Positions 2,875 to 20,005 of a DNA stretch of 64,000 bases are shown piece by piece (position 1 is the first letter of the stretch; each line of letters begins with the position of its first letter). A program made the position numbers and the translations under genes. The stretch is from contig CAKZPB010000078.1 of assembly GCA_937138395.1 (NCBI GenBank), forward strand, positions 1 to 64,000, given 5' to 3'. This stretch comes from an uncultured Pseudomonadota bacterium. Its GTDB lineage: Bacteria; Pseudomonadota; Gammaproteobacteria; Xanthomonadales; Wenzhouxiangellaceae. The notes under the pieces were generated by a model that had not been told where the DNA came from, searched no databases, and was given only the letters and a program-made list of their open reading frames with translations.

Positions 2875-2973
2875 TCGAGTTCAGCAGGATTCAATGCAAT
2901 GAGCACGCAGCTGGGTGAAAAACGACTGGTAAAATAGCTACCCAGAAATCAACCAACCTTCCGGGAACTTCTA

Positions 2974-4428
2974 ATGAGTGCAGAAATTGATTTACGTGCG
3001 GCGGCTCGTCCAGAGCCGGATTCTTTACTTGTCCAGATTGCGGATTATGTCTGTGATTATGAAATCGAGTCTGACGAGGCCTGGAAAACCGCGCATTACT
3101 GCCTGAAGGATTCGCTGGCCTGCAGCCTGCTGGCATTGAGGTTTCCCGAATGCGTCAAGCTGCTGGGCCCGGTGGTTCCTGGAGCCCACCTGGCCGGCGG
3201 TGCCCGTGTGCCCGGCACTCACTTCGAGCTCGATCCAGTCCAGGCCGCTTTCAATATCGGCGTATTGGTGCGCTATCTGGACTTCAATGACACCTGGCTG
3301 GCGGCGGAATGGGGCCACCCGTCCGATAATCTGGGCGCGATCCTGGCCGTAGCCGACTACGTGTCCCGTACCGAAATCAGCGAAGGCCGCGAGCCCTTGT
3401 CCGTGCGCGATGTGCTTGAGGCCATGATCAAGGCGCATGAAATTCAGGGCGTGCTGGCGCTGAAGAACTCCTTCAATCGGGTCGGTCTGGACCATGTCTT
3501 GTTGGTTCGGGTTGCATCGACGGCTGTTGTGACGCGCATGCTGGGTGGCAGTCGCGACGATGTCATCAATGCTCTCAGCCAGGCCTGGATCGACGGCGGG
3601 GCGCTCAGAACGTACCGTCATGCCCCGAATGCCGGTCCACGCAAGAGCTGGGCGGCAGGTGATGCCTGTCGACGAGCAGTTCAGTTGGCACTGCTCACAC
3701 TGAAAGGTGAAATCGGCTATCCGTCGGCGCTAACGGCCAAAGGCTGGGGATTTCAGGATGTGCTGTTCAAGGGTCAGCCTGTCGTACTGGAACGCGAGCT
3801 GGGTAGCTACGTCATGGAAAATATTCTATTCAAGATCGCCTTTCCAGCCGAATTCCATGCCCAGACCGCAGTGGAGTGTGCGTTGCAGCTGCATGCTGAA
3901 GTTCGTGACCGGCTTGAAGATATCGAGCGTATCGAGTTGGAAACTCAAGAAGCGGGCGTCCGGATCATCGATAAAACCGGGCCGTTGAATAACTATGCAG
4001 ACCGCGATCACTGCCTGCAATACATGGTGGCCATCCCGATGATCTTTGGCAAACTGACTGCCGAGTCCTACACGGATGCAGTGGCTTCCGATCCAAGAAT
4101 CGATGCGCTGCGCGACAAGATGGTGGTCAAGGAGAATCCGCAATTCACTGCAGACTATTTTGACTCCGACAAACGGGCCATCGGCAATGCCATCCAGGTG
4201 CATTTCACCGATGGTTCGTCGACCGAACAAGTCTCGATTGATTATCCGGTTGGCCATCGCCGCCGCCGGGATGAGGGAATTCCACTGCTTGAAGACAAGT
4301 TTGCGCGCGCGGTCGAGGGTCAGCTGGATGCGCGTCAGGCGCAGGCGATTCAGCAGGCGATGGCGCAATACGACGCTGCGCAAGGCATGGATGTGCATGA
4401 GTTTTCGGCGCTGTGGTCGCTGATCTAA
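2974..4428 (+). CDS. prpD: 2-methylcitrate dehydratase (MmgE/PrpD family)
   Basis: This 484-residue protein matches the length and layout of PrpD, which dehydrates 2-methylcitrate to 2-methyl-cis-aconitate in propionate breakdown. Recognisable segments are [21 protein letters not shown] near residue 95, typical of the MmgE/PrpD active-site lid, [18 protein letters not shown] near residue 225, and [15 protein letters not shown] near residue 290. The usual partners prpB and prpC are not adjacent; the next gene, three bases on, is a cytochrome b561. The family also includes other hydro-lyases, so the substrate rests on similarity alone. Confidence 0.88.
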
Positions 4429-4431
4429 GCA

Positions 4432-4974
4432 GTGCGCCAGGCCGGTGAGTCCGCTGTTACGACCGCTGCTCGATACCCGGGCCGTTTGATTCTGCTGCAC
4501 TGGCTGCTTGCGGTTTTATTGCTTGGCATGATTGTGCTGGGTCTGATGATGGGCGCGCTTGCGCGAGGCAATGCCTTGAAGTCATTAATGCTCAACCTGC
4601 ATCTGATGACCGGCCTGTTAGTGCTGTTTCTGTCGGGTGTCCGGGCTTACTACCGGCAGAACAGTCGATTGCCCGCAATGCCCGCCCGTTATTCGATCTG
4701 GAGGGCCCGCCTGGCGCAAACGGTACACCGGCTGTTCTATGGATTGATGTTCGGCTTGCCGCTGCTGGGATTGTCGGTCTGGGCAATTGATCCATTTGTC
4801 GGCGGCCCCGCGCTGTTCGGGGAAGGAGTTGCGATCAGCAACGCGGCGGCCAGATTGCATACGGCTCACTATCTGGGCGCCTGGCTGATATTGGTTGCGC
4901 TGTTGCTGCACATTGTCGGCGCGATGGGAACGGACGATCAAGGCCGACGAATACTGCGAAGGATGCTGCCCTGA
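4432..4974 (+). CDS. Cytochrome b561 family protein
   Basis: The 180-residue protein has four membrane segments and the histidines expected for two b-type hemes: LLHWLLAVLL in helix 1, LHLMTGLLVLFL in helix 2, and TAHYLGAWL with LLLHIVGAMG in helix 4. Bacterial di-heme b561 proteins pass electrons between the quinone pool and periplasmic acceptors such as superoxide. It starts at GTG 4432, three bases after prpD, so the two genes are probably co-transcribed. No link to propionate metabolism is evident. Confidence 0.85.
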   Translation: MRQAGESAVTTAARYPGRLILLHWLLAVLLLGMIVLGLMMGALARGNALKSLMLNLHLMTGLLVLFLSGVRAYYRQNSRLPAMPARYSIWRARLAQTVHRLFYGLMFGLPLLGLSVWAIDPFVGGPALFGEGVAISNAAARLHTAHYLGAWLILVALLLHIVGAMGTDDQGRRILRRMLP

Positions 4975-5017
4975 TCGTGGGACGTATTAACGACAGCGAC
5001 AGCACGCTTGAAACGCA

Positions 5018-5623
5018 TCAATGCATGGCAGCCTGGGCTCTGCGGACAAAGAATCCGACAATTGGCAGGTGCTCATACAGTCCGGCAGCCGCGTCCCAGA
5101 AATCCTGGTGCAGGATGATTTCGCCCTGTTCATTGAAGCGCAGATGCGTCATGCCGATGGACTCCGAGTCAACACCCATGCCGTAGGCGCTGGATGAAAA
5201 GTGCATGTTCCAGCGGACGAAAACGTCCTCACCATCACGAATGACCTGATCGATCTTGACTGTGCTGACGTTCAGCCGGTCCGATGTTTTGCCCATGTAT
5301 TCACTCAAATCCGTTCGAGTTCTCAACGTGGTTACAGTGTCGTTGAAGTACAACGATGAGGCATACAGCTGACTGATCTTGTCAGCCGTCGACGGGTCGG
5401 CCAGGTTTGCATAGGTTTGTTTGAAATTTTCAAGGCCCTGCTCGACGCCATCGGTGCTTCCGGGAAAGTCATTCAGGGCTTGCTGATACTGCTCGGTGTA
5501 GTTACTCATGGTTGATTGGATGGTACTTTGAATGAAGAAAATTGCAAGCATTGCAAACACCAGCGTTGAAAACACGGAAATTACGACCGTGAGTAGCAGT
5601 TTTGTAGGCTTTGCTGTTGTCAT
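5018..5623 (-). CDS. NTF2/SnoaL-like protein with N-terminal membrane segment
   Basis: The 201-residue protein begins with an uncleaved-looking hydrophobic helix (LLLTVVISVFSTLVFAMLAI). After a helical stretch comes an NTF2-like cone fold: KISQLYASSLYFNDTV, then VIRDGEDVFVRWNMHF and GMTHLRFNEQGEIILHQDFW, the typical closing strands of SnoaL-like proteins. Related NTF2-like proteins occur in gene sets with cyclopropane-synthase homologues and flavin oxidases in other proteobacteria. It diverges from the desaturase, sharing a 111-bp intergenic region, so common control is likely. No catalytic residues can be assigned. Confidence 0.7.
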   Translation of the reverse strand: MTTAKPTKLLLTVVISVFSTLVFAMLAIFFIQSTIQSTMSNYTEQYQQALNDFPGSTDGVEQGLENFKQTYANLADPSTADKISQLYASSLYFNDTVTTLRTRTDLSEYMGKTSDRLNVSTVKIDQVIRDGEDVFVRWNMHFSSSAYGMGVDSESIGMTHLRFNEQGEIILHQDFWDAAAGLYEHLPIVGFFVRRAQAAMH

Positions 5624-5734
5624 GTTGTTTCAATTCTGGTTGCATTTAAATCCTCGCCGAACAGACGTTGACTTAAATAAGGTGTGCAGGAATGCTTCAT
5701 GCAGTTTTTGTACTCGGGAGACTATACTTCAGCC

Positions 5735-6664
5735 ATGTCATTAGCCCGTTCAGTTCTGCGCTGGTTCGATACCCAGCAGTCCGCGCCCGTTGAGTGTTCG
5801 AATCAATCGCATTCGGTTGACCTGGCCCGTGTCATTCCCTTTATTGTCCTGCATTTGTCCTGCCTGGCCGTACTTTGGGTTGGCGTATCGGCCACTGCGG
5901 TCGCAGTCTGTGTACTGAGTTATCTGCTGAGAATGTTCGCCATTACTGCGTTCTATCATCGATACTTTGCGCATCGCGCGTTCAAGACCTCACGTGCCCT
6001 GCAATTCCTCTTTGCGCTTGTCGGTGCCTCTGCAACACAACGTGGGCCGCTGTGGTGGGCTGCGCATCACCGCAGACACCACAAGCATTCAGATCAACAA
6101 GGCGATCCGCACAGCCCGCGAAAGGGCCTGTTCTGGAGTCACATGGGCTGGTTCCTCAGTCGAGCGCACTTTGCGACTGAATGGAAGCAGATTCCTGATC
6201 TTGCACGCTACCCTGAACTGCGATGGCTTGATCGTTTCGATATTGTGGTGCCTGTGCTGTATGCCACGGCATTGTTCGGCTTGGGCAGTGTGCTGGATAC
6301 GGTTGCACCAGGACTGAATACCAGCGGTTGGCAGCTGCTGGTCTGGGGCTACCTGGTCTCCACGGTCGTGTTGATTCATGCCACGCTGACGATCAATTCG
6401 CTGGCGCATCGTTTTGGCCGCAGACGCTACTCCACGCGAGACGATTCCCGCAACAATCTTTGGCTGGCATTGCTGACGCTCGGCGAGGGCTGGCACAACA
6501 ATCACCATCACTTTCCGGGCGCTGCCCGTCAGGGGTTTTTCTGGTGGGAGATCGATGTCAGCTACGCTGTACTCAAAGCTATGTCCTGGTTGGGTTTGGT
6601 CTGGGATCTGAAGCCGGTGCCGCAGGGCGTTCGTGAGCGGCGTCAGATTCGAGTTCAAGGCTGA
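5735..6664 (+). CDS. Membrane fatty acid desaturase (acyl-CoA desaturase type)
   Basis: The protein has the three His clusters of the non-heme di-iron stearoyl-CoA desaturase family: HRYFAHRAF near residue 75, HHRRHHKHSD near residue 112 and EGWHNNHHHFP near residue 252, with hydrophobic pairs between. It would introduce a cis double bond into acyl chains in the inner membrane. ATG 5735 begins MSLARSVLRWF; an upstream GTG (5684) is in frame but would add residues unlike the family. Its TGA overlaps the next gene's ATG by one base. As first gene of the lipid cluster it may supply the unsaturated chain on which the downstream methyltransferases act; that order is inference. Confidence 0.9.
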   Translation: MSLARSVLRWFDTQQSAPVECSNQSHSVDLARVIPFIVLHLSCLAVLWVGVSATAVAVCVLSYLLRMFAITAFYHRYFAHRAFKTSRALQFLFALVGASATQRGPLWWAAHHRRHHKHSDQQGDPHSPRKGLFWSHMGWFLSRAHFATEWKQIPDLARYPELRWLDRFDIVVPVLYATALFGLGSVLDTVAPGLNTSGWQLLVWGYLVSTVVLIHATLTINSLAHRFGRRRYSTRDDSRNNLWLALLTLGEGWHNNHHHFPGAARQGFFWWEIDVSYAVLKAMSWLGLVWDLKPVPQGVRERRQIRVQG

Positions 6665-7917
6665 TGCGCATTGCGGTCATCGGCGCCGGTGTTGCGGGGC
6701 TCTACGCTGCCTGGCATTTGGCGCAACAGCATCGGGTCGTTTTATTCGAGCAACACGGCCGTGCTGGCGGCCATACTGATACCCATGCGATCACGTCAAA
6801 TGGACGGACGCTCGCGGTGGATACCGGTTTTATCGTATTCAATCCAGAGCGCTATCCGCTGTTCAATGCCTGGATCGATCAGCATGGGGTCGAGAGTCGC
6901 GAAAGCGTGATGAGCTTTGGCGTCAGCTGCACGAAGTCCGGCCTGGAGTACAACGCAACCGATCTCGATTCTTTATTTTGTCAGCGCAGTAATCTGATCA
7001 AGCCGGGGTTTCTGAGGATGCTGCTGGATCTGTTCAGATTCTACAGGCAAGCACCCGGGCTGCTGCGGTCGCTGGATGACGGGACCACGCTCGGCGAATG
7101 GCTGGAAGATGCAGGCATGTGCAGGGAATTCAGCGAGTACCATCTGGTGCCAATGGCGTCGGCATTATGGTCTACGCCGCCGGGCCAGGTTTCTGATTTT
7201 CCAATGCGATATCTGCTCGAATTCATGCAGAATCACCAAATGCTGCAGGCCTTCAATCGTCCGATCTGGAAAACCATTCGGGGCGGTAGCCGGCAATACG
7301 TTGACCGGGTTCTGCAAAGCTACTGCGGCGAACTACGCGTTGGCTGCAGAGTGCATCAGCTGGAACGGCATGACGATCATATCGTGTTGCGACACGAGGC
7401 GGGCGAAGAACCGTTTGATCAGGCTGTTCTGGCGTGCCATGCCGATCAGGCACTCGCGCTGATGTCATCGCCGAGTCAGGCTGAGCATCAGGTGTTGTCG
7501 GCATTCGAATATTCAGATAACGATACGGTTTTGCACACGGACCGCTCGGTGATGCCCAGCAATCGCAAGGCATGGGCGAGCTGGAATGTTCGTATTGGTT
7601 CCGGTTCCGGCGAGCAGCAGGGTGCGATCTCGTACTGGATGAATCGCCTGCAGGGCATCGAGGATCCGACGCCGTATATCGTTTCGTTGAATCAAACCAG
7701 CCAGATTGATCCGGCCAGGATTCTGAAGCGAAGGCAATACCAGCACCCGCTGTACACGCGCAAATCCAGGCAGGCACAGACTCGCCTGGCCGAAATCAAC
7801 GGATTGGACCGCGTATGGTTCTGCGGCGCTCACTGGGGCTGGGGTTTCCACGAGGATGCCGTTCGAAGCGCGGGTCAGGTGCTTACAGGCCTTGAGGCAT
7901 ATGCACGGGCGGCCTGA
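6664..7917 (+). CDS. FAD-dependent oxidoreductase (amine-oxidase fold)
   Basis: The 417-residue flavoprotein opens directly with the dinucleotide-binding motif MRIAVIGAGVAGLYAAWHL, followed by the FAD-ribose Glu (LFEQHGRAGGHTDT). It ends with the second FAD motif (FCGAHWGWGFHEDA). It belongs to the amine-oxidase/phytoene-desaturase superfamily, in the branch that sits beside cyclopropane fatty acid synthase homologues and DUF1365 in many proteobacteria. The reaction is not established; oxidation or desaturation of a modified acyl chain is a reasonable inference. Translation is coupled to the genes on both sides by overlaps of 1 and 17 bases. Confidence 0.85.
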   Translation: MRIAVIGAGVAGLYAAWHLAQQHRVVLFEQHGRAGGHTDTHAITSNGRTLAVDTGFIVFNPERYPLFNAWIDQHGVESRESVMSFGVSCTKSGLEYNATDLDSLFCQRSNLIKPGFLRMLLDLFRFYRQAPGLLRSLDDGTTLGEWLEDAGMCREFSEYHLVPMASALWSTPPGQVSDFPMRYLLEFMQNHQMLQAFNRPIWKTIRGGSRQYVDRVLQSYCGELRVGCRVHQLERHDDHIVLRHEAGEEPFDQAVLACHADQALALMSSPSQAEHQVLSAFEYSDNDTVLHTDRSVMPSNRKAWASWNVRIGSGSGEQQGAISYWMNRLQGIEDPTPYIVSLNQTSQIDPARILKRRQYQHPLYTRKSRQAQTRLAEINGLDRVWFCGAHWGWGFHEDAVRSAGQVLTGLEAYARAA

Positions 7918-8668
7918 TCAATTCGGCGTTGGTGACGTCTGGCATCGGCGGGTGCGAGAGCATGACCATCACTTCCGTTATTCCATCAGTTACTGCCTGC
8001 TTGACGTGGATCGAATTGATCAGCGTCTGTCCCGGTCGAGACTCTGGAGCCGAAAGCCCTGGGCGCCGGTTCGCTATCGAAGGTCCGATTACATGCTGCC
8101 GCAGGATCAATCGTTGGGTACCGTTGTGCGTGACCGGGTCGAGCAACACCTGGGTCGGCGCCCGGCAGGTCAGATCCGTTTATTGACCCAGCTTCGCCAA
8201 TGGGGGTTGTGTTTCAATCCGGTGTCCTTTTATTTTTGCTACGCCAGGCCAAATGTGATGGATTGCATTGTTGCTGAAATTCACAATACGCCCTGGGGTG
8301 AGCGACATGCCTACGTGCTGGACGCGAGCGGGCCCAACCATGATCAGCAAGCAATGGAATTCACTTTCAAAAAGGCGTTTCATGTGTCACCCTTTCTGCC
8401 CATGGATATGCAGTACCACTGGCGTATTGGGTTAGCTGATGACAAAGTCAGGATTCACATGCTGGTGACCGAGCAGGGCGCAGAATCGCTCAAAACCGGG
8501 CTTCAGCTGGAGCTCAAGCAGCTGGACACCCGTGCGATGAACAGGCTGCCATTTCAGTTTCCGCTACAGGCGGCCAAAGTCGTGGGCGGCATTTACTGGC
8601 AGGCGTTTCGGCTGTGGCACAAACGAACCCAGTTTTTTCCGCACCCCGGGCGCGGCTCGTCTTCCTGA
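7901..8668 (+). CDS. DUF1365 family protein
   Basis: This 255-residue protein matches DUF1365: an early V-W-H-R-R motif (GVGDVWHRRVREHDHHFRYS), the conserved FNPVSFYFCY segment near residue 105, EIHNTPWGERHAYVL, and FKKAFHVSPFLPMD. ATG 7901 puts the family's V-x-H-R-R motif at the usual distance from the start; an upstream ATG at 7856 would lie deep inside the oxidoreductase gene. The family has no settled biochemical role and co-occurs with flavin oxidases and cyclopropane-synthase homologues, exactly as here. Confidence 0.88.
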   Translation: MHGRPDQFGVGDVWHRRVREHDHHFRYSISYCLLDVDRIDQRLSRSRLWSRKPWAPVRYRRSDYMLPQDQSLGTVVRDRVEQHLGRRPAGQIRLLTQLRQWGLCFNPVSFYFCYARPNVMDCIVAEIHNTPWGERHAYVLDASGPNHDQQAMEFTFKKAFHVSPFLPMDMQYHWRIGLADDKVRIHMLVTEQGAESLKTGLQLELKQLDTRAMNRLPFQFPLQAAKVVGGIYWQAFRLWHKRTQFFPHPGRGSSS

Positions 8669-8677
8669 TTGAACGCC

Positions 8678-8708
8678 TTGCACAATGCAAACCATAGTTA
8701 AAAATAAT
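8678..8708 (+). promoter_or_regulatory. Possible internal promoter with palindromic -35 region
   Basis: In the 48-bp gap before the cyclopropane synthase gene, TTGCACAATGCAA (8678-8690) is an inverted repeat with 5-bp arms. Its left half resembles a -35 box. AATAAT at 8703-8708 is one mismatch from a -10 box, but the 19-base spacing is long. The stretch is AT-rich compared with its surroundings. It may let the distal half of the cluster be transcribed separately, with the palindrome as operator. Confidence 0.35.
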
Positions 8709-8716
8709 CTAACGGT

Positions 8717-10045
8717 ATGAACGAGCCCAGTATTTCCAAGCAGACACTCACCTCTGAACCGGATCATGAGGCCATGGCCCGTTCCCTGGACGCGCCGGAC
8801 ACGAAGCCCGAATCTGCGAAAGATGCCAGCCGACTCGGTATGTCGATCAATCGATTTTGCCGCCGAAAAGTACTCGAACGAATATCGAGTCTGACGCGGG
8901 GACAAATGACCCTGATCGACCAGGATGGTCGCTACACGCTGGATGGGTCTGATTCGATTTCAGCAGAAGTCATCATTCATGATCTGCGCTTCTGGCGCAT
9001 GATGGCTACCGGCGGCAGTGTCGGTGCAGGCGAGGCCTATGTTGCAGGTCTGTGGGATAGCCCGGATTTGACCGCGGTCATTCGGGTGTTGGCTCGAAAC
9101 CGTGAGTTGCTCTCGAGGATGGAGCAGGGTGCAGCGTGGCTTTCGAGAATTCCATTGGCCTGGCTGCATCGGTTGAATCGAAACAGCGTGGACGGGAGCC
9201 GCAAGAATATTTCGGCCCACTATGATCTTGGCAACGATTTTTTTGCTCACTGGCTGGATCAACGCATGCAGTATTCATCTGCATGGTTTCAATCTTCCTC
9301 GGATTCGCTGGATCAAGCGCAGGAACAGAAACTGTCCCGCATTGCCGAGCGCCTCGAGCTGGGACCCGAGGATCATCTACTGGAAATCGGGACCGGCTGG
9401 GGCGGTCTGGCGATTTACATGGCCAGCACCACGGGTTGCAAGGTAACCACAACCACCATTTCACGCCAGCAATACGACTATGCCAGTCAGCGTATTCGGC
9501 AGGCGGGGCTCGAGGATCGTATCGAATTGCTGTTGCAGGATTACCGTGAGCTCAGCGGTGAATATGACAAGCTGGTATCGGTTGAAATGATCGAAGCCGT
9601 TGGTGCAGACTTCCTCGACACCTACCTTAAGATCATCGAACAACGACTGAAGCCGAATGGACTGGCTCTGGTTCAGGCAATCACAATCGAGGATTTCCGC
9701 TACGCCGGCGCATTGAAGCGGGTAGATTTCATCCAGCGCTATATATTTCCCGGCAGTTTTATCCCATCACTGACCGCGATCGTGAACAGTATGGCGCGCG
9801 GCACCGATATGACCTTGATTGATCTGCATGACATGGGCGGCAGTTATGCACGAACCCTGGCATGCTGGCATCAGCGTTTCGAGCTGGCCTGGCCCGAGAT
9901 TCAGCAGTCGACCGCGTTTGATGAGGTGTTCCGGCGCCGTTGGCGCTTTTACCTGAACTACTGCGAAGGCGGATTTCGCGAACGGGCGATCAGCGATCAG
10001 CAATTGCTGTTCGCCCGGCCGGATTACGTGTCAGCGGCGGGCTGA
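8717..10045 (+). CDS. cfa: Cyclopropane-fatty-acyl-phospholipid synthase
   Basis: The 442-residue protein has the two-domain layout of Cfa. The N-terminal lipid-binding domain covers about residues 60-140 (GGSVGAGEAYVAGLWDSPDL). The SAM-dependent fold follows, with YDLGNDFFAHWLD near residue 165, the SAM loop LLEIGTGWGGLAIYMA near residue 220, VEMIEAVG near residue 290 and the conserved C-terminal YLNYCEGGFRERAI. Cfa transfers a methylene from S-adenosylmethionine across a cis double bond in membrane phospholipid. A desaturase five genes upstream could make that double bond. About 60 polar residues precede the domain. A different SAM-dependent modification of the double bond cannot be excluded. 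Confidence 0.9.
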   Translation: MNEPSISKQTLTSEPDHEAMARSLDAPDTKPESAKDASRLGMSINRFCRRKVLERISSLTRGQMTLIDQDGRYTLDGSDSISAEVIIHDLRFWRMMATGGSVGAGEAYVAGLWDSPDLTAVIRVLARNRELLSRMEQGAAWLSRIPLAWLHRLNRNSVDGSRKNISAHYDLGNDFFAHWLDQRMQYSSAWFQSSSDSLDQAQEQKLSRIAERLELGPEDHLLEIGTGWGGLAIYMASTTGCKVTTTTISRQQYDYASQRIRQAGLEDRIELLLQDYRELSGEYDKLVSVEMIEAVGADFLDTYLKIIEQRLKPNGLALVQAITIEDFRYAGALKRVDFIQRYIFPGSFIPSLTAIVNSMARGTDMTLIDLHDMGGSYARTLACWHQRFELAWPEIQQSTAFDEVFRRRWRFYLNYCEGGFRERAISDQQLLFARPDYVSAAG

Positions 10046-10061
10046 GCCGGGATGAATCCGC

Positions 10062-10616
10062 ATGAAACCTGATTTCTGGATCAATATGGCGTTCTTTCAG
10101 CTGGCCTGGCCGGCCTGCGTAGTTGGTGCCGCCTATGGGATGATCTGGCCATCGGTCGCGCTGGTCGGCTTGTTTGCAGCCTGGCAGCTTCATCCGCGCA
10201 ACGCCCATCCCAATGACCGATGGCTGGTGCTCGTATTCATCGCCACCGGTCTGATTCTGGATTCTGTCTGGATTCAAAACGATGTACTTCAGTACAACGC
10301 AGCCTGGCCGTCTGAGGCCACTACACCACTGTGGCTGCTGATGCTGTGGGTTGCCCTGGCGCTGTCTGTCAATCATTCGATGCGTTACTTTCGACAGCAC
10401 TGGCTGCGCTGGTCGATCCTGTTGTGCTTCGCTTCTCCATTTTCATACTGGATGGCCGCCCGCCTTGGCGCCGTAGAATGGCTGGCGCCGGATTGGGTGG
10501 TTGTGCTGTTGCTCGGCCCCGGTTGGGCCATCGTGGTTGGCGCATTATTCGCGCTGGCAAAACGGATGGCAGGGTCGAACGAAGCCGGGCGGCCAGCTTT
10601 CTATCAAAAGGATTAA
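10062..10616 (+). CDS. DUF2878 family membrane protein
   Basis: This 184-residue protein has about five to six membrane segments. It matches DUF2878 in its start (FWINMAFFQLAWPACVVGAAYG), in GLILDSVWIQNDVLQY near residue 65, and in the C-terminal pair of helices. The family has no known activity but travels with cyclopropane synthase, DUF1365 and flavin oxidase genes. It lies 16 bases after the cyclopropane synthase gene and 6 bases before the second methyltransferase, so it is part of the same operon. Confidence 0.8.
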   Translation: MKPDFWINMAFFQLAWPACVVGAAYGMIWPSVALVGLFAAWQLHPRNAHPNDRWLVLVFIATGLILDSVWIQNDVLQYNAAWPSEATTPLWLLMLWVALALSVNHSMRYFRQHWLRWSILLCFASPFSYWMAARLGAVEWLAPDWVVVLLLGPGWAIVVGALFALAKRMAGSNEAGRPAFYQKD

Positions 10617-10622
10617 TTGCTC

Positions 10623-11648
10623 ATGAATGTGATTGAACTTGCCGAACGTGGATGGCTGCCCGACCGCTTGGTCCGGATTGGCATTCGTCGATTACTCAAG
10701 ATTCGTCTTGGCCAACAGGATGCGACCGATGTGGAGCAACAATCGGAACACTTTACGCGGTTGATCCAGTCCTTGACGGAGTCTGATATTGCCATTGAGA
10801 CCGACGCGGCCAATCAACAGCATTACGAGGTGCCGGCAGCATTTTATCGACTGGCCCTGGGCAAGCACCTGAAGTATTCCTGTGGCTATTGGCCCAACGG
10901 CGTTCAAACACTGGATGATTCCGAAGCGGCCATGCTTGCACAGAGCTGCGAGGCGGCTCAGCTGTCCAACGGCCAGACCATCCTGGAGCTTGGCTGTGGC
11001 TGGGGATCACTGACGCTATGGATGGCTCAGCATTATCCGGACAGTCAAATTACCGCAGTCTCCAACTCGAATTCACAGCGCGAGTGGATTCTTGGGCAGG
11101 CGGACGAACGTGGCCTGACGAATCTTGAAGTGCTGACCTGCGACGTGAATGATCTGGAGCTGGATCGCAGCTTTGATCGAGTGGTATCGATTGAAATGTT
11201 TGAACATGTTCGTAACTATCAGCAGTTGATGAAAAAGATTGCCGGCTGGCTCACACCACAGGGTGTACTGTTTGTACATATTTTCTGTCACAGGCATCTG
11301 ATGTATCCGTTTGAAACCGAAGGAGATGGCAACTGGATGGGCCGTTATTTTTTTGCTGGCGGCCTGATGCCGGCGGCCGATACGTTGCTGTATTTCCAGG
11401 ACGATCTAAACATTGATCGCCGCTGGCTGTTCAGTGGAACACACTATGCGCAAACCGCACGGGCCTGGCTTGATCAAACCGATCGGCACCGTACTGAAAT
11501 CCAGGCTGTATTTGAACAGACTTACGGTGCGGATGCGTCGATCTGGTTGCAGCGCTGGCGCATGTTCTTCATGGCCTGCGAAGAGCTGTTCAACTACAAT
11601 TCCGGCCAGGACTGGATGGTTGGCCATTTTCGGTTTACCAAGCGCTGA
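10623..11648 (+). CDS. Second cyclopropane-synthase-type SAM methyltransferase
   Basis: The 341-residue protein carries the same methyltransferase core as the Cfa-like enzyme upstream but lacks its long N-terminal domain. It shows QQHYEVPAAFYRLALGKHLKYSCGYW near residue 60, the SAM loop ILELGCGWGSLTLWMA near residue 120 and VVSIEMFEHVRNY near residue 190. The C-terminal half differs (WLQRWRMFFMACEELFNY). This branch resembles small-molecule and lipid methyltransferases of the cyclopropane superfamily rather than Cfa itself. ATG 10623 is preceded by AAAGGA. The product is probably a methylated acyl chain or head group; the exact substrate cannot be read from sequence. Confidence 0.82.
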   Translation: MNVIELAERGWLPDRLVRIGIRRLLKIRLGQQDATDVEQQSEHFTRLIQSLTESDIAIETDAANQQHYEVPAAFYRLALGKHLKYSCGYWPNGVQTLDDSEAAMLAQSCEAAQLSNGQTILELGCGWGSLTLWMAQHYPDSQITAVSNSNSQREWILGQADERGLTNLEVLTCDVNDLELDRSFDRVVSIEMFEHVRNYQQLMKKIAGWLTPQGVLFVHIFCHRHLMYPFETEGDGNWMGRYFFAGGLMPAADTLLYFQDDLNIDRRWLFSGTHYAQTARAWLDQTDRHRTEIQAVFEQTYGADASIWLQRWRMFFMACEELFNYNSGQDWMVGHFRFTKR

Positions 11649-13964: not shown

Positions 13965-14831
13965 TCAGAAATTTCGCCGCAAAATACGCTGTGCCATCCA
14001 GCGGAGCGGCTCGGTATTGCCTTCCAGGCGTTGTAAAGACTCGGCGGCCTGCTGAATTAGCGCTTCCGACCGTTGATGTGCAGCGTCAATTCCGTATAGC
14101 AGCGGCCAGCTGGCCTTGTCCATGGCCTGATCCGAGCCGGCAGGCTTACCGATCTGTTCCGATGTGCCTTCCACATCGAGTAGATCATCGATGATCTGGA
14201 ATGCAAGGCCAACAGATTCAGCAAATTCACGCAGCGCAAGGCAGTCGTTTTTGCTTGATCCTGCCAACAGCGCCGGCATCAGCACTGCGGCGTCGAGCAA
14301 GGCGCCGGTCTTCAGCCTGAACATGTGCTCGATGTCGGCCTGCTCAGGCCGCGTTGCTTCATACATCAAGTCCAGCGCCTGTCCTCCGGCCATACCTGCC
14401 GAACTGCAGGCACTGGCCAGGTAGCCAACGATCGCAGCCTGTTGTGTCTCGTTTGCCAGCTTTTCAAATGCCAGCGCCTGTAGTGCGTCACCGCACAGAA
14501 TTGCGGTGGCTTCGTCGAAGGCGCGATGAACGGTCGGTTTACCGCGCCTGAGGTCATCGTCATCCATGGCAGGAAGATCATCGTGCACCAGCGAATAGCA
14601 ATGAATCAACTCGATTGCAGCTGCGATCGGGTCGACGGACTGCCGCTCGATGCCAAGTACGTCGGCCGTTGCATAGCTCAGCAAGGGTCGGATTCGTTTG
14701 CCGCCATTGAATACCGCATACCGCATGGATCGATGCAGAGGGCGGGGCGGCATGGCGTCATCAGGCAACCATTCATCCAGGGTGGATTCGACGCGCCGAT
14801 TCAGTTCTTCGACGTGATGTTCGAACGACAT
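13965..14831 (-). CDS. ispA: Farnesyl diphosphate synthase (short-chain polyprenyl synthase)
   Basis: The 288-residue protein condenses isopentenyl diphosphate with allylic diphosphates to C15. The first Asp-rich motif is DDLPAMDDDDLRRGKPT near residue 86, with YSLVHDDL just before it as in bacterial short-chain synthases. The second is FQIIDDLLDVEG near residue 215, followed by GKPAGSD. NGGKRIRPLL near residue 42 binds the homoallylic substrate. The gene diverges from the mevalonate operon beginning at 14966, putting supply and first use of C5 units back to back. Confidence 0.92.
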   Translation of the reverse strand: MSFEHHVEELNRRVESTLDEWLPDDAMPPRPLHRSMRYAVFNGGKRIRPLLSYATADVLGIERQSVDPIAAAIELIHCYSLVHDDLPAMDDDDLRRGKPTVHRAFDEATAILCGDALQALAFEKLANETQQAAIVGYLASACSSAGMAGGQALDLMYEATRPEQADIEHMFRLKTGALLDAAVLMPALLAGSSKNDCLALREFAESVGLAFQIIDDLLDVEGTSEQIGKPAGSDQAMDKASWPLLYGIDAAHQRSEALIQQAAESLQRLEGNTEPLRWMAQRILRRNF

Positions 14832-14965
14832 GAGGCAGTCCAGGGTTTGGCAGGACGCTAGTGTAATGGCTAGCGCTGCCTGTTGCGGAGTGGGCGAGGT
14901 AATGAGCCGGTTTCAGTCGGCAATGTCCAGGCAATTACTCGATGATCAGGGTACTATCGTCAGCC

Positions 14966-15979
14966 ATGTCCATACACGACTCGAAACCGACCGACGCTGC
15001 AGTTGCTACAGCGCGAGCGCACGCGAATTTTGCGCTCGTTAAATACTGGGGCAAACGCAATTCGGAGCTGAACCTGCCCGATGTAGGCTCGATTTCGATT
15101 ACGCTCGACGCACTGCACACGACAACCCGCGTTACGCTCGATCAAAACCTGCAGCGAGATGAGCTATGGCTGAACGGGCAGCGGAGTCCTGCAGCTGAAC
15201 TGCGCGCCCGCCAGGTCCTGGATCGCATTCGTGAAGCTGCAGGTGTCTCATCCTGTTGCCGCATCGATAGTGAAAACAATTTTCCAACCGCCGCCGGCCT
15301 GGCCTCGTCAGCCTCCGGTTTTGCGGCTTTAGTCACGGCTGCGACTGCAGCCATGCGCTATGACACACCTGAAAGCAAGCGATCCGAGTGGGCAAGAATG
15401 GGGTCGGGCTCGGCTGCGCGCTCGATCTTCGGAGGCTTCTCCGAAATGGCGAAAGGCAGACTCGATGATGGAACCGACAGCGTTGCGCGTCCTTTGCTTG
15501 ATGCTGCAGCTTGGCCGTTGGAAGTCGTCGTGGCCATCACCCGGCGGGAGCAGAAAGGCGTCAGTTCTACCGAAGGCATGCTGCGAACCGCCCAAACTTC
15601 ACCTTTTTACAAGGCCTGGGTCAAGCATCAGGATCAGGATCTCGACCTGGCACGTGACGCCATCGCGGCGCAAGACTTCGACGCGCTGGCAGACGTTGCC
15701 GAGGCCAGTGCGCTCAGCATGCATGGCCTGGCCATGTCGGCGCGTCCGGGCTTGTTGTATTTCAATCCGACAACATTGGCCTGTCTGCACCGTGTTCGCG
15801 AGCTGCGCGCCGAAGGTACTCCGGTGTTTTTTACCGTCGATGCAGGCCCCCAGGTCAAAGCGATCTGTATGCCGGATCATCGTCATCAGGTCAGTACCGC
15901 ACTGAGTGAAATTTCCGGTGTTACCGAGGTGATCAGCAGCGTACTGGGCCCTGCGGCGCATCTCATCGATACGGTTTGA
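14966..15979 (+). CDS. mvaD: Diphosphomevalonate decarboxylase
   Basis: The 337-residue GHMP-family enzyme makes isopentenyl diphosphate from mevalonate diphosphate with ATP. Diagnostic segments are ANFALVKYWGKRN near residue 20, TAAGLASSASGFAALV near residue 110, the serine loop SGSAARSIFGGF near residue 150, and FFTVDAGPQVKAIC near residue 290, containing the catalytic Asp. ATG 14966 is preferred; ATG 14942 in frame would add eight residues and neither has a strong ribosome site. Its stop lies five bases before the next gene. It is the first gene of the mevalonate operon. Confidence 0.93.
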   Translation: MSIHDSKPTDAAVATARAHANFALVKYWGKRNSELNLPDVGSISITLDALHTTTRVTLDQNLQRDELWLNGQRSPAAELRARQVLDRIREAAGVSSCCRIDSENNFPTAAGLASSASGFAALVTAATAAMRYDTPESKRSEWARMGSGSAARSIFGGFSEMAKGRLDDGTDSVARPLLDAAAWPLEVVVAITRREQKGVSSTEGMLRTAQTSPFYKAWVKHQDQDLDLARDAIAAQDFDALADVAEASALSMHGLAMSARPGLLYFNPTTLACLHRVRELRAEGTPVFFTVDAGPQVKAICMPDHRHQVSTALSEISGVTEVISSVLGPAAHLIDTV

Positions 15980-15984
15980 ACCGG

Positions 15985-17049
15985 ATGAACCCCGTTGAAG
16001 CTCAGGCGCCTGGCAAGCTGATGCTTAGCGGTGAATACGCTGTGTTGTGCAATGCGCCAGCCATACTTGTGCCCGTTGAACGACGCGTTTTTGTTCGCAT
16101 TCGACCGCTTCAGCATGGCCCCAGCCGATTGCAGGCAACACCACTGATCGAAGGTTCGCTTGAGTTCGCTCCGGACCACGGGGCCTTCTGGATGAATCCA
16201 GTCCAGGCTCACCAAGCGCTGGGCATGAGCGCTCGGCTGCTACCTCGACTTTGGGCCATGTTGAGCCTGCGTAAATCAGTGGCGTGGGTTGAAATCCAGG
16301 TTGATAGTTCGGAGCTGTTCGAGCAGCACGCCGGCAGTCAGATCAAACTGGGTATCGGCTCCAGTGCTGCGGTCAGTGTGGCACTCTATCGTGCACTGCA
16401 GGCACTGGTCGGTGACCGTGTCTCGACGCGTGATCCAGCGCGGGACTTGTCGACGTTGCTACCGGTCTATCGGGCATCACTCGAGGCCGATGCCAGCGGC
16501 GCTGATCTGGCAGCCAGCCTGTACGGTGATCTGATCGCCGTGACGCCGAACCATCATGGCCTTGCAGCACAGCCATTGTCCTGGCCCGAGGGGCTGTTCT
16601 ACCAGCCGGTCTGGACGCAAGAAGCCGCCCAGACGGTCGACTTCGTTGAGCGCTTCACTCAGTGGCGACAATCGGATCGCTGCGCTGAGTCGCTGGTTAC
16701 TGAATTGTCTTCCCGGGCAGCACAGGTTGTTGTCTCATTTCAACACGAGTCACCCGCGCTGATTCTGGAAGCGCTCGCAGGTTTTGCCCAAACATTGCGC
16801 CGCATGGATGACCACATCGTGTCCAGCACGGCATCGCAGCAGCGGATCGTCAGTCCAGCTCATCAGCAGCTGGCTCGGCTTGCTGAGCGGCATGGTGTGG
16901 TGTACAAGAGTTGTGGTGCCGGGGGCGGAGATTTGGGGGTCGCCCTGAGTGATCAGCGTCAATCGATGCAGGCGTTTGTCGACAGCCTGGATTCGATCCA
17001 GGCCCGCCCGATCGCACTGACTGCCCAGACAGGACCCTACATGCAATAA
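15985..17049 (+). CDS. GHMP kinase, probable phosphomevalonate kinase
   Basis: The 354-residue protein shows the three GHMP kinase motifs: N-terminal APGKLMLSGEYAVL, ATP-binding KLGIGSSAAVSVALYRAL near residue 120 and C-terminal SCGAGGGDLGVAL near residue 310. SGADLAASLYG is typical of the phosphomevalonate kinase branch. Assignment rests partly on context: decarboxylase and mevalonate kinase are both accounted for by neighbours, leaving phosphomevalonate phosphorylation as the missing step. ATG 15985 places the family start correctly; the in-frame TTG at 15976 overlaps the upstream stop. Sequence alone could also fit another mevalonate-type kinase. Confidence 0.8.
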   Translation: MNPVEAQAPGKLMLSGEYAVLCNAPAILVPVERRVFVRIRPLQHGPSRLQATPLIEGSLEFAPDHGAFWMNPVQAHQALGMSARLLPRLWAMLSLRKSVAWVEIQVDSSELFEQHAGSQIKLGIGSSAAVSVALYRALQALVGDRVSTRDPARDLSTLLPVYRASLEADASGADLAASLYGDLIAVTPNHHGLAAQPLSWPEGLFYQPVWTQEAAQTVDFVERFTQWRQSDRCAESLVTELSSRAAQVVVSFQHESPALILEALAGFAQTLRRMDDHIVSSTASQQRIVSPAHQQLARLAERHGVVYKSCGAGGGDLGVALSDQRQSMQAFVDSLDSIQARPIALTAQTGPYMQ

Positions 17050-17107
17050 AATCAGCATCCTGCACTGATGGTCTGCAGTGCGTTTCGCTGTACGATGACA
17101 AATGGTT

Positions 17108-17113
17108 GAGGGA
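17108..17113 (+). promoter_or_regulatory. Shine-Dalgarno site deciding a TTG start
   Basis: GAGGGA lies 7 bases before TTG 17121. This favours TTG 17121 over the in-frame TTG at 17106, which would overlap the site itself. The nearby ATG at 17102 is in another frame. Confidence 0.65.
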
Positions 17114-17120
17114 ACCGGAT

Positions 17121-19424
17121 TTGGCCAGAATTCCAGAATTTTATAAACTGTCGGTTGCTGAGCGTGTTCGCGCGGTGCAGCAGCAGGGGCTGCTGTCCAA
17201 TCAGGATTGTCAGGCGCTGACCACCGGCGAACACACCCTGTCGGTGCAGTCGGCCGACAAGATGATCGAAAATGTCATTGGTGTCATGGGTCTCCCGGTT
17301 GGTCTGGGCATGAATTTCCTGATTAATGATCAGGAATACGCCGTCCCGCTGGTCGTCGAAGAGCCGTCGATCGTGGCAGCGTTGAGTTCGGCCGCGAAAC
17401 TGGCGCGCAGCGGCGGTGGATTCCGGGTACACAGCAGCGAGCCGATACTGATCGGCCAGATCCAGGTGGTTCATGTTCCTCACCCGGCGCGTGCCAAGGC
17501 AGCCCTGATCGAACGCAAACGAGACATTCTGAACCTTGCCAACAGCCTGCATCCCAATATGGTCGCTCGCGGAGGTGGTGCCAAGGATCTGGAGGTCATC
17601 ATCCATCCATCGTCGGGGCAGGGCGGCGACATGGTGGTAGTGCACCTGCTGGTCGATACCTGCGATGCGATGGGCGCCAACCTGGTCAACACCATGTGTG
17701 AAGGCGTTGCCTCGATGGTCGAAAGCATCAGTGAAGGCCGCGTGTTCCTTAAAATTCTGTCCAACCTGACTGATCGATCGATGGTCAAGGCTGAAGTCAC
17801 CATTCCTGTTGCGGCGCTGGCCGGCAAAGGCTTTGATGGTGAAGAGGTGCGCGACGGTATCATCCTGGCCAATGAATTTGCATCGATCGATCCCTACCGG
17901 GCTGCAACCCACAATAAGGGCATCATGAATGGGATCGATGCCGTTGCACTGGCAACCGGAAATGACTGGCGTGCAATCGAGGCGGGAGCGCATGCCTGGG
18001 CTGCCAGAGGCTCGCATTATGCATCCTTGACGCAGTGGACAAAGGATTCGAATGGTGCCCTGAAGGGCAGCCTCGAAATTCCGCTCAAGGTCGGCATTGT
18101 CGGCGGTCCATTGGAGTCCAATCCTACGGTCGGTATGAATCTTCGCTTGCTCGGCGTCAAGAGCGCACGCGAACTGGCTGAGGTCATGGGTGCTGTGGGT
18201 CTGGCGCAGAACTTTTCCGCGATTCGCGCGCTGACCACAGAAGGCATCCAGCAGGGCCATATGACGCTGCATGCACGAAGCGTCGTGTCGGCGGCTGGAG
18301 CGCCGCCGGATATCTTTGAAACGGTGGTCGAGCGCCTGATTGCCAGCGATCAAATCAAGATCTGGAAGGCGCGCGAAATTATCCAGGCGCTGGAAAAAAC
18401 GGCGCCCCAACCAGCGGCCAGAACCAATGGCAGTCAGTATGCCGAAGCCGATTCGGGCGGAGACATGTCTTCGGGTCACGGCAAGATCATCCTGCTGGGC
18501 GAGCATTCCGTGGTGTATGGCCGACACGCGATTGCAGCCCCTGTACCACTCGCGATTCAGGCCCGGATTGCCGATGGCGACAAGGGCGTCGAGTTGATCA
18601 TTCCACGCTGGAGCATCAAACAACGGCTGCATCACTCGGAAGCAAAGCAGCACTCCTTCGAGAAGTCGCTGTCGCTGGTGCTTGGCGAGTTGAAACTGAA
18701 TCAGCCGTCGATGCGGATCGAGATTTTTCCGAACGTGCCCAGAGCCATGGGGCTCGGTGGCTCCGCTGCGCTGGCAGTTGCGGTGATCCGGGCACTCGAC
18801 CGTCGCTATCAGCTGGGGTTGAGCGATGAGCGCGTCAATGAGCTTGCGTTTGAGTGCGAAAAAATTGCCCACGGCACCCCTTCAGGTATCGACAACACGT
18901 TGTCGGTTTATGGCAAACCGATGCTGTTTCGCGCGGGTGACCAGCCGCTACGTGAAGAGATTGCAATTCAAGGTCCGATCGATCTCGTCATCGGGATCAG
19001 TGGAATCGAAAGCCTGACGGCTGCGACGGTCGCAAGGGTCAAGAAAGCGCGAGAACAGCGGCCGGCCCTGTATGAAGAAATCTTCGATCAAATCGATTCG
19101 CTGGTGCTGCAGGCTGTCCAGGCCTTGCAACAGCGCGATATCGAAACCCTCGGCGAGCTGATGAATGTCTGCCAGGGCCTGTTGAATGCCATGCAGGTAT
19201 CGAGCTGGGAGCTGGAGGAAATGATTCAGATTGCGCGCAATTGCGGTGCACTCGGCGCCAAGTTGACCGGAGGTGGCGGCGGTGGTTCGATGATCGCACT
19301 CTGTCCGTCTGATCCGGAGGCGATCGCCCGCGTCGAACATGGCCTGAAACAGGCTGGCTACCAATCGATGGCCGTCACGATTGGCAGTACGGACAAACCG
19401 AAAGGCAACGGAGTCAGCGTCTGA
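17121..19424 (+). CDS. HMG-CoA reductase / mevalonate kinase fusion
   Basis: One uninterrupted 767-residue frame joins two mevalonate-pathway enzymes. Residues 1 to about 428 are a class II (bacterial-type) HMG-CoA reductase: VVEEPSIVAALSSAAK with the catalytic Glu, DAMGANLVNTMCEGVA, HNKGIMNGIDAVALATGNDW with the Lys and Asp, and GHMTLHARSV with the catalytic His. A polar linker of about 20 residues follows. Residues from about 450 are a mevalonate kinase: GKIILLGEHSVVYG, PRAMGLGGSAALAVAV, HGTPSGIDNTLSVYG and KLTGGGGGGSMIALC. The protein would turn HMG-CoA into mevalonate and then phosphomevalonate. An in-frame ATG at 18465 preceded by GGAG could allow separate kinase synthesis, though the spacing is short. 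The stop overlaps the idi start. Confidence 0.95.
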   Translation: MARIPEFYKLSVAERVRAVQQQGLLSNQDCQALTTGEHTLSVQSADKMIENVIGVMGLPVGLGMNFLINDQEYAVPLVVEEPSIVAALSSAAKLARSGGGFRVHSSEPILIGQIQVVHVPHPARAKAALIERKRDILNLANSLHPNMVARGGGAKDLEVIIHPSSGQGGDMVVVHLLVDTCDAMGANLVNTMCEGVASMVESISEGRVFLKILSNLTDRSMVKAEVTIPVAALAGKGFDGEEVRDGIILANEFASIDPYRAATHNKGIMNGIDAVALATGNDWRAIEAGAHAWAARGSHYASLTQWTKDSNGALKGSLEIPLKVGIVGGPLESNPTVGMNLRLLGVKSARELAEVMGAVGLAQNFSAIRALTTEGIQQGHMTLHARSVVSAAGAPPDIFETVVERLIASDQIKIWKAREIIQALEKTAPQPAARTNGSQYAEADSGGDMSSGHGKIILLGEHSVVYGRHAIAAPVPLAIQARIADGDKGVELIIPRWSIKQRLHHSEAKQHSFEKSLSLVLGELKLNQPSMRIEIFPNVPRAMGLGGSAALAVAVIRALDRRYQLGLSDERVNELAFECEKIAHGTPSGIDNTLSVYGKPMLFRAGDQPLREEIAIQGPIDLVIGISGIESLTAATVARVKKAREQRPALYEEIFDQIDSLVLQAVQALQQRDIETLGELMNVCQGLLNAMQVSSWELEEMIQIARNCGALGAKLTGGGGGGSMIALCPSDPEAIARVEHGLKQAGYQSMAVTIGSTDKPKGNGVSV

Positions 19425-20005
19425 TGGAACCATCCAATCCTGTTTCGTTTGATTCCGAGCCGTTGATTCTGGTCGACCAGGAGGATCAGACCATCGGGTT
19501 TTTGCCCAAGGTCGATTGTCATCGCGGTCATGGCCGTCTGCACCGGGCATTTTCAATCTTCTTGTTTGATCAGAATGGGCGTGTGCTGCTGCAGCAGCGT
19601 AGCCAGCAAAAGCCGTTGTGGCCGTTGTTCTGGTCCAACAGTTGTTGCAGTCATCCACGCAAGGGTGAGTCCATCGAACTGGCTGCCGAGCGACGCTTGC
19701 GCGAGGAGCTGGGCGTCAGCACCCAATTGAACTGGTTGTATAAGTTTATTTACCAGGCCGATTTCGAGGATGTCGGCGCCGAGCACGAGCTGTGCCATGT
19801 GCTGATTGGCCGTTTCGATGGCGACATTCAGGTGCATCCCGATGAAATTGCTGCCTGGCGTTGGCTCACGATCGATCAGATCAATCAGGAACTGATTGAA
19901 TGCGCGGAGCGCTACACGCCCTGGTTCAAGCTTGAATGGCAGCGCTTGCTGAACGATTGGCAGCCCGAAATACAGGCCCTGTCGGGACGGCGAAAAAGCG
20001 CCTGA
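19424..20005 (+). CDS. idi: Isopentenyl-diphosphate delta-isomerase, type I
   Basis: The 193-residue Nudix-fold enzyme interconverts isopentenyl and dimethylallyl diphosphate, which is essential where only the mevalonate route makes C5 units. Visible features are the metal-binding HRGHGRLHRAFS near residue 30, active-site Cys in WSNSCCSHPRKGE near residue 70, the Nudix helix AAERRLREELG, and catalytic Glu in AEHELCHVL near residue 124. Its ATG overlaps the fusion gene's TGA by one base. It ends exactly where the convergent rluB gene ends, with no base between the stop codons. Confidence 0.95.
   Translation: MEPSNPVSFDSEPLILVDQEDQTIGFLPKVDCHRGHGRLHRAFSIFLFDQNGRVLLQQRSQQKPLWPLFWSNSCCSHPRKGESIELAAERRLREELGVSTQLNWLYKFIYQADFEDVGAEHELCHVLIGRFDGDIQVHPDEIAAWRWLTIDQINQELIECAERYTPWFKLEWQRLLNDWQPEIQALSGRRKSA

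Follow-up and report, generated by a model that had tools for sequence, protein, structure and literature searches.

A single open reading frame encodes a class II HMG-CoA reductase (HMGR) fused to a mevalonate kinase (MK), and this fusion is real and conserved across at least a hundred genomes, most of them gammaproteobacterial. We place a probability of about 0.88 on the fusion being a bifunctional biosynthetic enzyme that would take HMG-CoA to mevalonate and then to a phosphorylated product, on an essential isoprenoid route; both activities, the cofactor and the kinetic benefit of the fusion are predictions from sequence. The gene lies in the window (the whole 64,000-nt stretch of DNA that was analysed, from an uncultured member of the Wenzhouxiangellaceae) among the following features.

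13965-14831, minus strand: farnesyl diphosphate synthase, divergent from the operon (NF045485, 319 bits, cut-off 275)
14942-15979, plus strand: mvaD, diphosphomevalonate decarboxylase, the operon's first gene (TIGR01240, 290 bits, cut-off 171)
15976-17049, plus strand: phosphomevalonate kinase (PMK)-like GHMP kinase, overlapping mvaD by 4 nt (TIGR01220, 100 bits, under the cut-off of 165.7)
17121-19424, plus strand: HMGR–MK fusion (open reading frame with Pfam and NCBIfam domains; start placed by GAGGGA and relatives' starts)
17121-18392, plus strand: class II HMGR domain, including the C-terminal flap with GHMTLHAR (TIGR00532, alignment with 1qax, Foldseek)
18393-18488, plus strand: variable linker (model residues 427-445 below pLDDT 50; its overlap with the first MK residues is definitional)
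18465-19421, plus strand: mevalonate kinase (GHMP) domain (TIGR00549, match to 2hfs, Foldseek)
19424-20005, plus strand: idi, isopentenyl-diphosphate isomerase type I, Nudix (TIGR02150, 157 bits, cut-off 106)

The frame is open throughout, from a TTG at 17121 to a TGA at 19424, and encodes 767 amino acids. GAGGGA sits just 5' of 17121 and the starts of relatives align with the residue at 17121 or a few residues earlier, and for these reasons we prefer this start to the TTG at 17106, which seems the less likely one. Among NCBIfam models, TIGR00532 (HMGR) scores 397 bits against a cut-off of 259.95, over residues 5-390 of the 772-aa form and positions 20-395 of a 395-position profile, and TIGR00549 (mevalonate kinase) scores 252 bits against a cut-off of 163, over residues 458-732 of the same form. 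Pfam finds HMGR and GHMP domains only, with no thiolase domain. The HMGR half can be aligned with PDB 1qax across residues 2-416, and the MK half matches the Leishmania major kinase 2hfs at E 9e-48. Almost every one of 121 fused sequences retains the HMGR catalytic motifs EEPS, HNKG, GND and GHMxLHAR (which supply Glu, Lys, Asp and His), and the kinase motifs GKxILxGEH, GLGGSAA, HGxPSGxDN and GGGGGG are similarly conserved among 106. The first-pass annotation had read here one frame with a class II HMGR, a polar linker and a complete MK, and these scores and motifs bear it out; it was also right that the two enzymes catalyze successive steps and that a 1:1 ratio is implied, with both on a single chain. 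Promoter and terminator scans gave background levels only. A 606-aa antisense frame over the fusion (17052-18872, minus strand) has no Pfam match and is probably a by-product of codon composition.

The fusion is common among relatives of the window's genome. It is carried by 37 of the 61 related genomes compared, 34 from the window's own family and all three of those sampled from family f5 of the same order. Of the 34, two are incomplete: G002 runs off its contig, and the apparent break at residue 592 in G005 proved to be a run of N, so we reject G005 as an example of a broken fusion. A scan of named genomes returned at least 80 loci, every one an HMGR–MK match; carriers include isolates of Wenzhouxiangella, Dyella, Litchfieldella, Marinobacter and Rhodanobacter, many gammaproteobacterial metagenome-assembled genomes (MAGs) among the matches listed, and MAGs that by their labels belong to Thermoanaerobaculia, Calditrichaeota, KSB1 and Nakamurella. 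Two-domain proteins had been proposed at first pass as something to look for in other genomes, and all loci together yield at least 118 full-length fused frames (106 distinct), the linker always in frame, from at least seven families of the class. In the class sample, nine full-length fusions and one at a contig end come from 369 genomes and span seven families; the phylum sample holds the fusion in 2 of 398 genomes, and the plasmid collection holds unfused HMGRs only, with no locus spanning 80% of the query. The fusion of Marinobacter gelidimuriae (L035, NZ_KB889829.1) shares about 77% identity with the window's, much more than the taxonomy of its host would suggest, and may reflect horizontal transfer or contamination; that genome also has Dxr.

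How the fused frames vary is informative about their architecture. Linker length ranges from 18 to 36 residues, and mean pairwise identity is 73% for HMGR, 21% for the linker and 62% for MK. Between close pairs, dN is 0.08, 0.51 and 0.14 for the same three segments, and median dN/dS is about 0.10 for HMGR and 0.15 for MK, figures that are rough, given partial saturation at synonymous sites. Such variation is what two constrained domains joined by a free tether on a single chain would show, with purifying selection on both domains and drift in the linker.

The genomic context speaks to a biosynthetic role. The operon runs mvaD–PMK–[HMGR–MK]–idi with genes overlapping or nearly so, the start of idi overlapping the fusion's stop at 19424, and this order is retained in most relatives' loci with enough flank. 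The PMK-like gene is assigned by position and family, because its TIGR01220 score falls below the cut-off. HMG-CoA synthase is encoded on the same contig past the window's end, with PF08540 matches at 72.2-72.9 kb. Across the 61 relatives, Dxr is found in none of the 37 fusion genomes and in 22 of the 24 non-carriers (the two exceptions being 84% and 73% complete), and IspH in 0 of 26 fusion genomes versus 15 of 15 others, absences that are read from draft assemblies, many of them more than 95% complete. Given this distribution, mevalonate probably replaces the MEP pathway as the only isoprenoid route in the fusion-carrying relatives. Apart from the fusion, a single GHMP protein in the window's genome matches the MK domain, and both its sequence and its neighbor, a threonine synthase-like frame, point to ThrB; the fused MK is thus that genome's only MK candidate, and probably the only mevalonate kinase of the fusion-carrying relatives. 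G011, a member of the window's family (f1), has no fusion but does have Dxr and IspH, the reverse of its relatives, and set against the rest of f1 would make a clean case of a swap from MEP to mevalonate within one bacterial family. Mevalonate is not the sole route everywhere, since 5 of the 26 named fusion genomes listed also have Dxr above the cut-off. Dyella flava (G432) and D. acidiphila (G433) have, beside the fusion, full-length Dxr matches below the cut-off (220 and 204 bits), possibly a divergent or repurposed Dxr. The accessible part of a Wenzhouxiangella genome paper gives the mevalonate pathway as genus-specific relative to Marinicella, and contains no mention of an HMGR–MK fusion (PMC7691419). 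Elsewhere in the window, a lipid-modification cluster (5684-11648, plus strand) encodes a fatty acid desaturase, a flavin amine oxidase-like protein, a DUF1365 protein and two CMAS-type cyclopropane synthases.

The fusion probably arose once. In a quick maximum likelihood tree of the HMGR domain with a midpoint root, one branch (SH-aLRT 95.9) separates 39 fused from 16 unfused rows, and because the root is a midpoint we infer, rather than observe, that the fused rows form a clade. The MK tree keeps the fused rows in one group, which takes in just one free copy, that of G012, placed beside its own genome's fused MK. This copy is partly identical to the fused domain and is a tandem duplicate of it: at locus L118 (G012:C4, minus strand, about 1970-2890 and 2919-5165) a free, 320-aa MK gene comes immediately after the fusion. 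The G012 copy aside, no split genes were seen within the sampled fused clade, and a single fusion event followed by spread would be the simplest reading. Past the fused clade the MK tree has long branches, and no unfused source of the kinase was identified.

An AlphaFold2 model of the monomer, built from 61 relatives, has a mean pLDDT of 82.5 and a pTM of 0.50, and Foldseek matches it to Pseudomonas mevalonii HMGR and to the L. major and Methanosarcina mazei mevalonate kinases. Confidence drops below a pLDDT of 50 at residues 427-445, the linker, and at 374-379, just before GHMTLHAR. In class II HMGRs the C-terminal flap closes over the active site, as structures of the P. mevalonii enzyme show, and the low-confidence hinge of the model coincides with the location of this flap, so the kinase would hang on the flap via a disordered tether. 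We picture an N-terminal reductase that would convert HMG-CoA to mevalonate, probably with NADPH, and a C-terminal kinase that would then phosphorylate it, joined by a flexible tether of 20-35 residues that follows the reductase's mobile flap. The likely benefit would be fixed 1:1 dosage together with local capture of mevalonate at a raised local concentration, and ATP-driven phosphorylation would pull the reversible reductase reaction forward. Such an enzyme would supply the essential, and apparently the only, isoprenoid route in these bacteria.

Two alternatives bear on whether the product is one bifunctional chain. That an assembly artefact or a frameshift has joined two genes is practically inconceivable given so many full-length fused frames from so many assemblies, including isolates of Dyella, Wenzhouxiangella, Litchfieldella and Rhodanobacter, and these relatives lead us to reject sequencing error or a chance frame as well; a stop or frameshift in the linker region, named at first pass as something that would overturn the fusion, is absent from all 118 recovered frames. 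The other alternative is that two proteins are made, one being the full fusion or the reductase and the other a separate MK, whose translation would begin at the ATG at 18465 or which would be freed when the linker is cleaved. That ATG precedes SSGHGK in the window, a GGAG lies 2 nt upstream of it, L006, L007 and L032 have ATG at the same codon, and G012 has its free MK gene directly after the fusion. However, 2 nt is too little spacing for an efficient ribosome-binding site, the codon equivalent to 18465 is CTC, CTT or GTC in L005, L008, L013, L015 and L022, and any ATG, GTG or TTG within 12 codons upstream is found in just 46 of 104 frames. We therefore reject an internal start as a conserved feature, and the separate proteins that the first-pass annotation had allowed for find no conserved start at the linker among relatives. 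Moreover, although the linker drifts, every relative keeps the frame intact, a constraint that would be needless if selection favored two proteins, and we regard the production of two proteins as improbable.

Two further alternatives accept a single chain and concern what it does. The reductase half could be catabolic, oxidizing mevalonate, with the fusion serving mevalonate use instead of synthesis: TIGR00532 is named degradative, and the nearest unfused HMGRs found, which group next to the fused clade, include catabolic-type copies adjoining TRAP transporters or HMG-CoA lyase. The operon, with its mvaD, PMK-like kinase and idi, does not fit this role, nor does the absence of Dxr and IspH, and with a kinase on the same chain mevalonate would be committed to IPP. 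The cofactor site argues the same way. Asp146 of P. mevalonii HMGR, which from mutagenesis we take to be the residue that sets NAD specificity, is Asp in all eight catabolic-type unfused HMGRs, and 118 of 120 fused sequences have His at the equivalent position and the other two Gln; in the Streptococcus pneumoniae HMGR, whose structure includes NADPH, the residue is Tyr. With this Asp lost, and in a biosynthetic operon rather than beside an uptake transporter or HMG-CoA lyase, the fused HMGR is probably a biosynthetic, NADPH-using enzyme despite the family name, and we judge a catabolic role highly improbable. The channelling raised by the first-pass annotation could be direct, across a fixed interface joining the two active sites. 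In its favor, the steps are successive on one chain and no fission of the fusion was seen in the sampled clade. In the monomer model, however, the linker is disordered, and among relatives both its length and its sequence vary; because the model holds no confident domain-domain arrangement (pTM 0.50) it gives nothing for channelling. The idea thus finds no support so far and seems rather unlikely; as the tether is disordered in the model and no fixed docking is seen there, we favor tethered proximity and 1:1 dosage over a tunnel. It is a similarly doubtful idea that, in an oligomer, the kinase might sit over the reductase's moving flap, such that mevalonate would be passed on before bulk mixing and the state of the kinase would gate the reductase. 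If true, this would be an undescribed means by which the mevalonate pathway, having recruited a reversible reductase of the catabolic kind, becomes in effect irreversible. Feedback inhibition of the kinase acting on a bifunctional protein, also raised at first pass, likewise finds no support so far.

Two other HMGRs are encoded in the window's genome, bringing its HMGR genes to three, seemingly an unusual number for a bacterium. One is a second HMGR–kinase fusion of 799 aa (G000:C36:8828-11221; L003 346-2745, minus strand; L137 1826-4225, minus strand), in which a class I-type HMGR (PF00368, 44-414) is followed by an EcKL/APH-like kinase (PF02958, 558-737) with motifs HNDLSTRN and YDWE. No full-length fusion of this type was found among 60 related genomes; similar HMGR–APH/EcKL frames occur in the gammaproteobacterium G297 (L166, 840 aa) and on a plasmid of Streptomyces sp. 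NBC_01435 (L169). Mevalonate as the substrate of this kinase half is one guess. The third (G000:C125:12680-13792; L001 1480-3039, minus strand) has 519 aa and an HMG-CoA_red_N domain, with similar genes in several relatives.

Each half of the fusion resembles known proteins. The best PDB matches by sequence and structure, the P. mevalonii and Delftia class II HMGRs (1qax, 6dio), share its fold and catalytic residues; those enzymes are separate, NAD-bound and have Asp146, whereas the fusion has His at this position, carries a kinase and lies in a biosynthetic operon. The closest solved kinases by sequence and structure, from L. major (2hfs) and M. mazei (6mde), are stand-alone, unlike the fused MK. 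In its accessible sections, a 2026 review names two natural isoprenoid enzyme fusions, Enterococcus MvaE and the common bacterial IspDF, and does not name HMGR–MK (PMC13001223). MvaE likewise joins HMGR to a mevalonate-pathway enzyme, an acetoacetyl-CoA thiolase two steps upstream, where Pfam finds no thiolase domain in our fusion; IspDF joins non-consecutive MEP steps, unlike HMGR–MK. No published description of the HMGR–MK fusion was found in the open-access literature searched, where it looks undescribed, and no bifunctional NCBIfam model matched it; its domains and pathway are known and its architecture is widespread. The initial remark that this is not a standard bacterial architecture thus holds for that literature and fails for the window's family, in which the fusion is usual, and for at least seven families of the class. 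We see HMGR–MK as a variant on the isoprenoid-pathway fusions already known, and within its clade it is nothing out of the ordinary.

An annotation drawn solely from the family name would label the protein as degradative HMGR and might overlook its kinase, and surveys of pathway presence may therefore misread these genomes. HMGR is the statin target and the classic control enzyme of its pathway, and here it is fused to the next enzyme across a broad bacterial group. The fusion offers a direct test of channelling versus simple co-expression, as well as a ready part for isoprenoid engineering. Some carriers are cultured (Dyella, Rhodanobacter and Wenzhouxiangella), and in many carriers the fusion probably makes all isoprenoids.
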